Positions 55,076-58,525 of a stretch of DNA of 64,000 nucleotides are shown piece by piece; within the stretch, counting starts at the first letter, position 1, and the number at the start of each line of letters is the position of its first letter. A program made the position numbers and the translations under genes. The DNA lies in assembly GCF_003323745.1 (NCBI RefSeq), contig NZ_QOIL01000010.1:62001-126000 (forward strand). Direction: 5' to 3'. This DNA comes from Sphaerisporangium album. GTDB taxonomy: Bacteria; Actinomycetota; Actinomycetes; Streptosporangiales; Streptosporangiaceae. A model generated the notes under the pieces. The model had not been told where the DNA came from. It saw only the letters and a program-made list of their open reading frames with translations, and searched no databases.

Positions 55076-56713
55076 TCACTCTCCGCCCGGTTCGGCCCGT
55101 TCCGCGGAGGCGAGGTGGCGGGCGACGGCGTCCAGCGTGGGGAACTCCGACAGCAGCGTCGGCGGCACCCGGAAGCCGATCCGCTCTGAGAGGTCGGCCT
55201 GGATGTCGGCGACCTCCAGGGAGTCCAGCCCGTACGCCTCCACGGGGATCGAGGGGTCGATCTCGCACTCGGGCTGGTTCAGCTCAGCCGCCACACGGCG
55301 CACGAGCCACACCCGGATCTCCTCGGCCCCGTACAGGCCGTCCGCGTGGACCGGCCCGGCGGCGCGGGGCGGCGCGGGCCCGGCGGCGCGCTCGGTGATC
55401 TGGAAGAACCGGGCGGCGAGGTCGCGGGCGTAGGCGACGTTCGTCTCGATCAGCTCGAAGGCCGGCAGGGACCCCGCGTGGTAGGTCCGGTTGAGCCCCT
55501 GCGACGCCTCCAGGCGTTCCAGGACGCCGGCCGCCACGTCCTCGCACCCGAAGTGCGGCATGAACGGCCACTCGGCCACCCGCAGGACCTCCTCCAGCCG
55601 TCCGCCGGCCCGGGCCAGGTCCTCGCCCAGCCGTTCGCGCAGGGCGCCCGCGTCCACGCCGTCGCCGTAGCAGTAGGCGACGACGAGGTCCTGGCCGGCG
55701 TACCGGCTGTGGTAGGCCACGCACCGGCCGCCGGAGGTCGCCGCCGCCGCGCCGCGCCAGGGCAGCAGGAACATCCCTCCGCGTGGCAGTCCCGACACCC
55801 GGCACAGCACCGTGCGGTAGTCGACCGTCCGGACGCGGGAGGCGATGTCCCGCTCCTCGTCGGTGAGGTCCATCACCGTCCGCACCCGGTCCAGGGGGAC
55901 GGTGAGCACCAGCGCGTCGGCGGTCACCTGTTCCGAGCCGGTGCGCACGGTGACCGCGTCGGGGCCGCGCTCGATCCACTCCACCCGCACGCCGGTCCGC
56001 ACGTCCGGCAGTTCCTTGGCGACCCGCCGCCACAGCCGCGCGAAGCCGTCCTTCACCGTGAAGTTGCCCGCGTGCCCGCCGAGCGGCGCCCCCGAGCCGA
56101 CCAGGCCGGTGAGCTCGGCGAACTTCACGAAGTAGAGCGCGGGCAGGCCGGGGTCGGTCAGCAGGCCGAAGCCGCCGCTGGTGTAGCCGGTGCCGAGCGA
56201 GCCGGCCATCGCGCCCAGGCCCTCGGCGTCCAGCCAGGAGGAGATCGGCAGGGCGAGCGCGGCGGCGCTGTGCGCGAGCCCCGGCCGGCCGGCGTCCGGG
56301 AACTCCCGCTCGCGCAGCCGCAGGTAGCGCTGGAACGCCCGGCGCCGGAAGAAGCCGGAGCCGGGCGGGGCGGCCCGCCGGTGGCCGGCGTCCAGTTCCA
56401 GCGTCGGCGTGGCGTCCTCGGTCTCGACGCCGAGCTCGGCGGCCAGCGAGTACAGCTCCGTGTACGCCGTGGTGCACACGTGCGCACCCATGTCGTACGC
56501 GCGCCCGTCTACGTACACCGACTCCGCCTTGCCGCCGACCTGGTCGGTGTTCTCCAGCACCACCACCTCGTGCCCCAGGCGGACGAGCTCGCGGGCGAGG
56601 GTCAGGCCGCTCGCGCCGGCGCCGAGCACGCAGACCCGTCGCGGCGGGCCGCCCGCGCAGGCCCCGGATCCCGCGGTGGGCGCGGGGCCTCCGCGGGTGA
56701 GGTTCCGGTCCAT
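55076..56713 (-). CDS. FAD-dependent (amine-oxidase-fold) oxidoreductase fused to an acyl carrier protein domain
   Basis: 545-aa two-domain protein. Residues about 25-450 form a phytoene-desaturase/amine-oxidase-like flavoprotein: VCVLGAGASGLTLARELVRLG (dinucleotide motif 31-36), VVVLENTDQVGGKAESV, DGFARLWRRVAKELP, and a C-terminal ETNVAYARDLAARFF. After an Ala/Pro linker, residues about 465-538 are an acyl carrier domain with the phosphopantetheine Ser498 in YGLDSLE, followed by PPTLLSEFPTLDAVARHLA. It probably oxidises or desaturates an acyl chain held on its own carrier domain. The upstream FAAL gene (31 nt away, same strand) would load that carrier. GAAGGAGG precedes ATG 56713. Confidence 0.85.
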   Translation of the reverse strand: MDRNLTRGGPAPTAGSGACAGGPPRRVCVLGAGASGLTLARELVRLGHEVVVLENTDQVGGKAESVYVDGRAYDMGAHVCTTAYTELYSLAAELGVETEDATPTLELDAGHRRAAPPGSGFFRRRAFQRYLRLREREFPDAGRPGLAHSAAALALPISSWLDAEGLGAMAGSLGTGYTSGGFGLLTDPGLPALYFVKFAELTGLVGSGAPLGGHAGNFTVKDGFARLWRRVAKELPDVRTGVRVEWIERGPDAVTVRTGSEQVTADALVLTVPLDRVRTVMDLTDEERDIASRVRTVDYRTVLCRVSGLPRGGMFLLPWRGAAAATSGGRCVAYHSRYAGQDLVVAYCYGDGVDAGALRERLGEDLARAGGRLEEVLRVAEWPFMPHFGCEDVAAGVLERLEASQGLNRTYHAGSLPAFELIETNVAYARDLAARFFQITERAAGPAPPRAAGPVHADGLYGAEEIRVWLVRRVAAELNQPECEIDPSIPVEAYGLDSLEVADIQADLSERIGFRVPPTLLSEFPTLDAVARHLASAERAEPGGE

Positions 56714-56743
56714 GCGGCGGCCTCCTTCGGTCGTCGTGGGTCT

Positions 56744-58525
56744 TCAACCCCGCCGGGAGGGCAGGGGCCAGGCGGGGGCCTCGCCGCGCAGGTAGGCGTC
56801 GCGGCAGGCGCCGCGCCGCACCTTCCCGCTCGTGGTCTTCAGGACCAGGCCGCGCGGGCCGAGCACGACGTCGCACGCGATGCCGCCGTGCCGCCGCCGC
56901 ACGGTGGCCCGGACGGCGCGGACGACGTCCAGCGTCGCGTCCGGGCCGGGCTCGCCGCCGATCGTCTCGGCCATGACCACCACCCGTTCACCCTCCTCGT
57001 CCGTCTCCCCGGCGACGGCGAAGGCCGCCACGCCACCGGGGCGGATGAGCGGGTGGCACGCGCGGACGGAGTCCTCGATGTCCTGCGGGTAGTGGTTGTG
57101 CCCGCGAATGATGATCATGTCCTTGAGCCGCCCGGTGACGAACAGCTCGCCCTCGTACATGAACCCCAGGTCGCCGGTCCTGAGGTAGCGGCGGGGGTCC
57201 CCGTCCGCGACGGCGGCGTGGAAGGTCCGCGCGGTCTCCTCGGGCCGGTTCCAGTACCCCCGCGCCTTGGCCGCCGAGTCGGCCCAGATCTCGCCCACGC
57301 GGCCGGGCGGGCAGGGCATCGCGGTGTCCGGGTCGACGATCCGCACGCTCGCCCCGGGCTTGGTGGAGATGCCGCAGCCCCAGTAGGCCACCGTGTCGCC
57401 TGTGTCCACCGTCTCGTCCGGCCCCGCCGGCACGGCCAGTCCCCGCTCGATGGCCTCCCGGACGACGCGGAGCGGCCCGCTGCCGCCCATGGTCAGGCTG
57501 AGGGTGTGCTCGGCCATCCCGTAGGTCGGGAAGAACGCCCCGGGCGGGAACCCCGCCGGGACGAACGCCCTGAGGAACCTCTCCACAGTGGCGGGGCGGA
57601 TCGGCTCGCCCGAGGAGCCGATGTGGCGCAGCGAGCCGAGGTCCCACCCGGCGCGCTGCTCGGGCGTCGTCTTGCGGACGATCAGGTCGAAGGCGAAGTT
57701 CGGTGCCGCCGTGTGCGTCGCGCGCACCCGGGAGACCACGTCGAACCACACGGCCGGCCGTTGCAGGAAGCTCAGCGGCGACAGCACGTACGTCCGCGTC
57801 GAGTGGCCGACCACGGTGTTGAGCAGGAAGCTGATCAGGCCGAGGTCGTGGAAGTGCGGCACCCAGGTGACCGCGACGGTGTCCTCGCCGAGGCCGAGGT
57901 CGTGGGCCAGGCTGAGCAGCTCGTGGTGGATGTTGCGGTGGCTGACGATCACGCCCTTGGGCGTGCCGGTGGACCCGGAGGTGTACTGCAGGAACGCCGC
58001 GTCGTCCAGGTCGGCGGGCACGTGCCAGCGCGCGCGGGGCTCGCCGTCCGCGGCCGGCTCCGGCGGGAGGTCCCCGTGGGTGGACAGCCACGGCCGCCCC
58101 GCCCGGCACAGGTCACCGGTGACCATGCGGTGGTAGTCGTCGTGGGTGAGCAGGACCGCGGCGCCGGAGTCGGTCGCGACGGCGGACAGCACCTCGGCGT
58201 CGTGACCCGGCGAGAAGGGGTTCGGCGGCGCGACCGGCACGGGGATCACCCCGGCGGCCAGGCAGCCGAGGAACGCGCCGACGAAGTCGAGGGACGGCAG
58301 GTAGACCAGCAGCGCCCGGTCCCCGGGGCGCAGGCCGCACCGGTCGAGCAGGGCGCGCACGCGCTCGGTCTCGTCCACCAGCTCGCGGACGGTCATCGAC
58401 GCGGCGTCGCGGCCCTCGTCGTCGACCTGGACGAACAGCCTGCGCGCGGGCACCCGTCCGGCCAGGGCCCGCAGTGCCTCGGTCAGCGTGCGCTCGGTCG
58501 GGGCGCTCCGTGTCCTGAGCGTCAC
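56744..58525 (-). CDS. Fatty-acyl-AMP ligase (FAAL)
   Basis: 593-aa adenylating enzyme of the FAAL group, which activates fatty acids as acyl-AMP and loads carrier proteins rather than CoA. Core motifs: YTSGSTGTPKGVIVSH (181-196), WVPHFHDLGLISFLLN, FPTYGMAEHTLSL, YLRTGDLGFMYEGELFVTGR and IIIRGHNHYPQDIE. PLSFLQRPAVWFDVVSR and PNFAFDLIVRK are FAAL-typical. GTG 58525 with GAGGGG 9 nt upstream is chosen. First gene of a two-gene unit with the oxidoreductase-ACP fusion; no other biosynthetic gene lies nearby. Confidence 0.9.
   Translation of the reverse strand: MTLRTRSAPTERTLTEALRALAGRVPARRLFVQVDDEGRDAASMTVRELVDETERVRALLDRCGLRPGDRALLVYLPSLDFVGAFLGCLAAGVIPVPVAPPNPFSPGHDAEVLSAVATDSGAAVLLTHDDYHRMVTGDLCRAGRPWLSTHGDLPPEPAADGEPRARWHVPADLDDAAFLQYTSGSTGTPKGVIVSHRNIHHELLSLAHDLGLGEDTVAVTWVPHFHDLGLISFLLNTVVGHSTRTYVLSPLSFLQRPAVWFDVVSRVRATHTAAPNFAFDLIVRKTTPEQRAGWDLGSLRHIGSSGEPIRPATVERFLRAFVPAGFPPGAFFPTYGMAEHTLSLTMGGSGPLRVVREAIERGLAVPAGPDETVDTGDTVAYWGCGISTKPGASVRIVDPDTAMPCPPGRVGEIWADSAAKARGYWNRPEETARTFHAAVADGDPRRYLRTGDLGFMYEGELFVTGRLKDMIIIRGHNHYPQDIEDSVRACHPLIRPGGVAAFAVAGETDEEGERVVVMAETIGGEPGPDATLDVVRAVRATVRRRHGGIACDVVLGPRGLVLKTTSGKVRRGACRDAYLRGEAPAWPLPSRRG

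Follow-up and report, generated by a model that had tools for sequence, protein, structure and literature searches.

The occurrence of a fatty acyl-AMP ligase (FAAL) gene next to the gene for a flavoprotein with its own acyl carrier protein (ACP) domain, in a 64,000-nucleotide stretch of Sphaerisporangium album DNA (NZ_QOIL01000010.1, positions 62,001 to 126,000; this whole stretch is called the window), raises the question of which acyl chain such a pair might load and how it might change it. Unusual lipids, alkynes among them, can be made by editing cassettes that combine a FAAL with an ACP, and in the JamABC-type alkyne and alkene cassettes FAAL and ACP present a fatty acid to a desaturase. 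The reading preferred here, whose chances we consider about even, is that the window holds a compact two-gene unit editing a carrier-bound unsaturated fatty acid, in which the FAAL would load the chain and a flavin domain similar to the polyunsaturated fatty acid isomerase (PAI) would shift its double bonds. The FAAL would form an acyl-AMP from a free fatty acid and load the acyl chain onto the phosphopantetheine of the fused ACP, which would carry it to the PAI-like FAD domain. This domain would remove a hydride beside a double bond and give it back elsewhere, the bond being moved probably to a conjugated position, and the edited chain would be released by a thioesterase or acyltransferase from outside the unit, or handed on. 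Loading, substrate, isomerisation and release are steps that we infer from the sequence. If this is true, a PAI-type cassette would be a desaturase-free way of moving double bonds on a carrier.

The flavoprotein is by sequence PAI-like over the entire flavin domain, ahead of other amine-oxidase-fold enzymes, the activity itself being a prediction. A profile built from eight relatives (A2) matched PDB chain 2b9w with an E value of 3.8e-61 over profile positions 4-414 of 420, and the next chain, a monoamine oxidase, with 4.9e-23 over positions 4-251. The window sequence alone matched 2b9w over residues 25-437 (E 2.1e-28). The PDB title of 2b9w is 'putative aminooxidase', and we take this entry to be the PAI of Propionibacterium (Cutibacterium) acnes. 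PAI works by a hydride mechanism. The cut-off was met by none of the 25 NCBIfam models shown for the flavoprotein, the identity of which to its relatives was 43-59% (42 rows). A GYG...PAxY stretch common to the relatives' family and PAI was found in the window as GFG...PALY. In alignment A3 the 42 other rows agree completely at 52 columns; the window protein deviates at just three of these, by changes (L75M, Y182F and L281M) that are all mild, so its flavin domain is not decaying. According to the available part of PMC2885616, PAI consists of one domain and acts on free linoleic acid, whereas the window version carries an ACP on the same chain and has a FAAL as partner. The Pfam matches Amino_oxidase (residues 35-279, E 3.6e-27) and PP-binding were found on a single chain, the latter containing the DSL serine within GLDSLE; membership in the carrier family makes this serine, Ser498, the predicted attachment site.

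The 593-aa partner protein combines an AMP-binding domain with a FAAL-type C-terminal domain, DIP2-like in Pfam, and its nearest known relatives by sequence are FAALs. FAAL subfamilies provided its best NCBIfam models (PRK05850, 1.3e-113), the curated cut-off being reached by none of the 25 models shown. Among its PDB matches were FadD23, FadD32, FadD28 and 3pbk, titled fatty acyl-AMP or adenylate ligases; the two best chains, 7r7e-g and 3kxw, are titled 'Polyketide synthase' and 'Saframycin Mx1 synthetase B', and presumably are FAALs themselves. Alignment of the protein with 7r7f and 3kxw required short gaps only, and its identity to the FAALs of relatives was 47-69% (18 loci). Identities of this order, in both proteins, exceed what chance would give. 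The CoA-pocket residues of FAALs are described in the accessible portion of PMC8460268.

The FAAL gene comes first and is separated by 30 bases from the flavoprotein-ACP gene (Table 1). It starts at 58525 behind the Shine-Dalgarno sequence GAGGGG (58540-58535), and the flavoprotein-ACP gene starts with ATG at 56713 behind GAAGGAGG (56728-56721); both ribosome sites are good and both frames are intact. The left neighbour, a PaaD/SufT-like gene (54672-55046) which closes a run of SUF-type genes (names assigned by eye), is convergent with the unit, and the right neighbour, the DEAD-box helicase gene (58910-60484), is divergent from it. A unit of two genes fits, because the left neighbour converges, the right one points away and the pair is absent from this place in the genus mates. 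The unit contains no third gene, thioesterase or other release enzyme; neither protein has a membrane desaturase or acetylenase Pfam domain. In the 9.3 Mb genome the PAI-ACP fusion occurs in a single copy, the 11 other matches spanning just 40-103 residues.

Table 1. Features of the FAAL and flavoprotein-ACP unit in window coordinates.
Feature	Position	Strand	Basis
FAAL, 593 aa, GTG start	56744..58525	minus	Pfam AMP-binding 2e-61 + PF23024
PAI-like FAD protein with fused acyl carrier domain, 545 aa	55076..56713	minus	Pfam Amino_oxidase + PP-binding
PAI-like flavin domain, residues 23-440	55394..56647	minus	profile match to PDB 2b9w
Acyl carrier domain (PP-binding), residues 469-534	55112..55309	minus	PF00550 E 1.3e-12
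Predicted 4'-phosphopantetheine serine Ser498 in GLDSLE	55220..55222	minus	alignment column of A5
Inserted-looking stretch holding both genes	55047..58909		between PaaD/SufT-like and DEAD-box helicase genes

An earlier note on this DNA had described a FAAL and an amine-oxidase-fold flavoprotein with its own carrier domain as a two-gene unit, and genes, coordinates, Pfam domains and orientation of the neighbours agree with that description. The fold was correctly named, although understated, since the closest solved relative by sequence is PAI. The same note had likened the logic of the unit to FAAL-desaturase-ACP cassettes with a flavoprotein instead of the desaturase; a FAAL-loaded ACP with a flavoprotein editor fits and a desaturase is absent from the unit, the refinement being that the editor is PAI-like. 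As in the JamABC type, a free fatty acid would reach the editing enzyme by way of a FAAL and a dedicated ACP, but that enzyme is a desaturase in JamABC-type cassettes and a PAI-like flavoprotein fused to the ACP in the window, and the window unit is not a member of the FAAL-desaturase-ACP cassettes. FAAL and ACP are also common to lipoinitiation of the daptomycin type, as far as described in the available sections of PMC9113097, whereas the window ACP is fused to a flavoprotein and no nonribosomal peptide synthetase genes were found among the neighbours of the unit.

The flavoprotein family is sparse and actinobacterial. With a match threshold of E 1e-20 or better in the genome surveys, matches were found in seven of 341 Streptosporangiaceae genomes (that of S. 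album counted) and, in a class-wide draw, in six of 394, of which three had already been encountered and one (G670) is distant; among plasmids the one match was weak and came from Photobacterium (23.9% identity). A scan of one genome per species yielded 45 loci, 42 of which (L029-L070) are clear relatives; L071-L073, matched over just 36-39 residues, were excluded from every count. Loci L020-L022 and L024-L026 repeat L030, L062, L032, L063, L047 and L055 and were excluded from the clustering of loci; L068 (PAI split over two frames) and L069 (cut by a contig end) were kept within the 42 and excluded from A3, A5 and the tree; L019 and L023 were used in A3 and the tree, outside A5 and A6. Architectures were counted over the 42 loci from gene calls and domain searches. 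The loci comprised 17 with a FAAL directly upstream, 21 bare PAI loci of Streptomyces and four others (L030, L046, L063 and L065). The fused architecture, which the earlier note had proposed to seek in other genomes, is present there, the ACP being fused to PAI in 18 loci. A heme domain similar to allene oxide synthase (AOS) was found in 12 loci, fused in 11 and encoded by a separate gene directly upstream in L065; a thioesterase was fused in 15 (PF00975 in the seven proteins checked) and a P450 in eight, over two frames in L059. The fullest fusion consists of AOS-like domain, PAI and ACP, often with a thioesterase and sometimes with a P450, beside a similar FAAL, and FAAL plus AOS-PAI-ACP also occurs in L019 and L023, beyond the 42. 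An acyl-CoA-type thioesterase gene lies directly downstream in L032 and L062 (PF13622 + PF20789) and, by similarity, in L023. The terms 'minimal' and 'no release enzyme' used earlier thus suit the compact window unit and not the family, which has fused or downstream thioesterases and of which the window holds a reduced, not a lone, member. Across 19 loci the identities of FAAL and PAI domain rise and fall together (Spearman 0.76 from 171 non-independent pairs), so FAAL and flavoprotein diverge, and probably move, as a pair.

The interest of the locus lies mostly in the family that it opens up, the window holding a cut-down member. In the relatives a FAAL for loading is combined with a PAI-like flavoenzyme and with an AOS-like heme domain, in some loci beside genes similar to polyunsaturated fatty acid (PUFA) synthase genes; neither this combination nor any PAI-ACP or AOS-PAI-ACP fusion was found described in open-access full text, a body that leaves preprints and most subscription journals outside. 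The window unit is the simplest form seen here that retains FAAL, flavin domain and carrier, and it suits a study of the isolated flavin step.

Several loci are recorded for their own features. The second copy in Saccharopolyspora elongata (L034:8297-12226) has a FAAL followed by PAI-thioesterase, with no ACP or AOS-like domain recognised, and an Actinoallomurus locus (L063:8195-11614) encodes a diverged AOS-like domain, a long uncharacterised stretch, PAI and ACP, with polyketide synthase (PKS)-like genes near and no adjacent FAAL. The 21 bare PAI loci of Streptomyces (L068 with PAI in two frames) have three upstream gene families in common. In L054 iolC and iolB scored above the NCBIfam cut-offs and an iolE match below (145.6 vs 290 bits), and the set looks like myo-inositol loci, beyond L054 by clustering. 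Bare PAI stands there (e.g. L054:6764-12270) beside a PhyH-type protein (L054), SDR-like and Gfo/Idh-like proteins (by eye) and inositol catabolism genes.

The AOS-like domain of the relatives was assigned by its profile match in the structure database and not by the Pfam catalase call. In the ten-member alignment A6 the best match was the coral AOS domain (1u5u, E 1.2e-43), entries named catalase reaching 1.8e-8 at best; the Pfam catalase call was weak (five of ten members, best 5.8e-6; L041 with 20.4 bits vs a cut-off of 25). The fold predicted for the domain had a pLDDT of 84.3 and a pTM of 0.87. The coral heme residues R64, R102, R360, H67, T66, N137 and Y353, as given in the available text of PMC5617202, align with R48, R86, R349, H51, F50, N126 and Y342, which are invariant in 10/10 rows of A6, the coral distal Thr66 being replaced by Phe. 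In the 13-row alignment A4, which includes L021 and L022 as copies of L062 and L032, R48, R86, R349 and Y342 were found in 13 rows, H51 in 12, and F50 and N126 in 11; the exceptions are L024 (Ala50, Val126) and L019 (Met50, Tyr51, Ser126). In L019 (9979-11088) the distal His/Asn/Phe are thus Tyr/Ser/Met, with proximal Arg and Tyr retained; since this is the locus of genus mate G006, a weakening of the AOS-like step may already be under way in the lineage of the window protein. In a Micromonospora locus (L042:9563-13675) coding for OsmC-PAI-ACP-thioesterase-P450, OsmC (Pfam 7.4e-16), known from proteins that reduce organic hydroperoxides, replaces the AOS-like domain. The occupation of the same N-terminal place by two unrelated peroxide-type domains suggests a peroxide in the relatives' pathway. 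An H2O2-using (CYP152-type) P450 was considered for L042 and rejected, its nearest solved relatives being monooxygenases such as TamI, EryF and PikC, so the P450 lends the peroxide reading no support.

These domains bear on the possibility of net oxidase or dehydrogenase activity of the PAI-like domain: two electrons taken from the chain on the ACP would go to O2, and the AOS-like or OsmC domain of the sister proteins would deal with the resulting H2O2 or acyl hydroperoxide. The fold is common to oxidases, and the AOS-like domain in 12 of the 42 loci and OsmC in the same place in L042 are in agreement with such chemistry. The closest solved relative is nevertheless an isomerase, both peroxide-type domains are missing from the window protein, an AOS-like profile search of its genome gave just a 65-position stretch (E 7.3e-4), and the AOS-like domain of G006 has altered distal His, Asn and Phe. 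We consider net oxidation doubtful, though the most serious alternative to double-bond shifting.

A bolder and clearly less probable extension, put forward tentatively, is that the family as a whole constitutes a carrier-bound oxylipin pathway, in which the PAI-like enzyme would replace a lipoxygenase and oxygenate the polyunsaturated chain on the ACP, giving a hydroperoxide, the AOS-like domain would convert this into an allene oxide or a related product, and the thioesterase would release it, the window form stopping at the flavin step. The order of AOS-like domain first and oxidising domain second is the same in the relatives and in the coral AOS-lipoxygenase fusion (1u5u, 3dy5). The relatives have an N-terminal domain closest to coral AOS, and the coral fusion has a lipoxygenase where they have the PAI-like domain; the window protein has no AOS-like domain. 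The family makes carrier-built oxylipins in actinobacteria a testable question, and the AOS-like domain of the relatives hints at an unstudied bacterial lipid pathway.

Concerning the substrate, a polyunsaturated chain would be a sensible candidate, because genes similar to PfaD and the PfaA ketosynthase (KS) adjoin the cassette in seven of the 42 loci (by similarity to L033; weakest in L063, 1e-64). In the two loci compared with NCBIfam models the cut-offs were passed by PfaD and PfaA of L033 and by PfaD of L063; in L041, L042 and L058 the KS-like PKS genes are more distant and PfaD is missing. PfaD matches were more frequent among PAI-bearing genomes (3/7) than among the other genomes of the bacterial family (26/334), with a Fisher p of 0.015 that ignores kinship. 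No PfaA or PfaD genes adjoin the window unit, the PfaD matches of its genome being on contigs C61 (180211-181812) and, more distant, C9, not on C2; the arrangement thus differs from that of the seven relatives with Pfa-like genes beside the cassette. Pfa-type secondary lipid loci with uncharacterised products are listed in the available part of PMC3098273. The PfaA-like protein on C61 (2509 aa) has an N-terminal thioesterase domain and carrier domains. The surrounding PUFA-synthase-like locus (G000:C61:170000-197050; L076, L077) also codes for a second PKS-like protein of 2462 aa and a lone carrier-like protein of 96 aa.

Several points weigh against double-bond editing as proposed above. The link to PUFA synthases is loose and not strict: in G003 and G008 a close PfaD (88%) occurs without the cassette, and the match of G006 to PfaD, a distant one (46%), may come from a PKS of another type. 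Y182F falls inside the motif common with PAI, and the column aligned with PAI Arg88 (if the chain numbering equals the published one) holds Leu in the window, this column having Arg in 33 of the other 42 rows and Tyr, His, Leu, Gln or Phe in nine; the position of PAI Phe193 adjoins a gap in the alignment to the window family. We take Arg88 and Phe193 to be substrate residues of PAI. The peroxide-type domains of the sister proteins would be superfluous for a redox-neutral isomerase, the unit lacks a release enzyme, and the evidence in favour is all of the sequence kind.

The Pfa-like genes beside the relatives' cassettes and on C61 could also be explained if FAAL and ACP were a loading station from which a PKS elsewhere, e.g., PfaA/PfaD of C61, would receive a starter or a finished chain, with the flavin domain secondary. 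This is improbable: the C61 locus has carrier and thioesterase domains of its own, the close PfaD of G003 and G008 does without a cassette, and in 15 of the 42 relatives a thioesterase ends the same protein.

A PAI-domain tree of 43 rows (the window together with 40 of the 42 scan loci, L019 and L023) grouped the window with AOS-PAI-ACP of S. carminius, the bare PAI of S. fuscum and AOS-PAI-ACP of G006 (99/96), inside a group of 12 rows (100/100), nine of which have the AOS-like domain. Finer placement of the window was weak (87/33), the window and several neighbours being long branches. AOS-like profile searches matched G006, G033, G296, G297 and G017 at 1.5e-71 or better and gave none in G002. 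As the window protein is nested among AOS-bearing proteins and its unit lacks both the AOS-like domain and a thioesterase, the simple reading is that the window form is reduced, the AOS-like domain having probably been lost in its lineage; five Lentzea rows (PAI-ACP-thioesterase-P450) are likewise without it.

Nesting among AOS-bearing proteins and absence of two parts common in the sisters would also be expected of a relic that lost the AOS-like domain and release enzyme and is now functionless. The lineage seems to shed the AOS-like step, the distal residues being lost in G006, and in S. fuscum (L030) nothing but a bare PAI gene is seen within 10 kb. The intact frames, good ribosome sites, mildness of the three changes and retained carrier serine speak against this, and a relic is held to be as unlikely as the loading station. 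Oxidation of an amine or amide in an acyl chain that bears nitrogen, as suggested by the Pfam name Amino_oxidase and by LkcE, a lankacidin pathway enzyme of the same fold, is the least credible of all, since LkcE matches the N-terminal part only (E about 5e-11) and PAI almost the full profile (3.8e-61), and the partner protein is a FAAL.

The preferred reading, carrier-bound double-bond shifting, would apply to a unit that looks inserted between the PaaD/SufT-like and helicase genes, since these lie near each other in 10 other genus genomes (344-744 bp, compared with 3864 bp in the window genome) and the cassette is absent there. The PaaD/SufT-like gene was present in 11/11 Sphaerisporangium genomes, one of two PaaD places being compared in G002. 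No cassette match was found among the small frames called in the PaaD-helicase gaps of the genus mates, and G006 carries its FAAL and AOS-PAI-ACP fusion elsewhere. The unit was probably acquired laterally. Elsewhere in the window, an open frame of 2420 aa (4614-11876) lies partly in the stretch of lowest G+C (0.61-0.65 at 8-14 kb).

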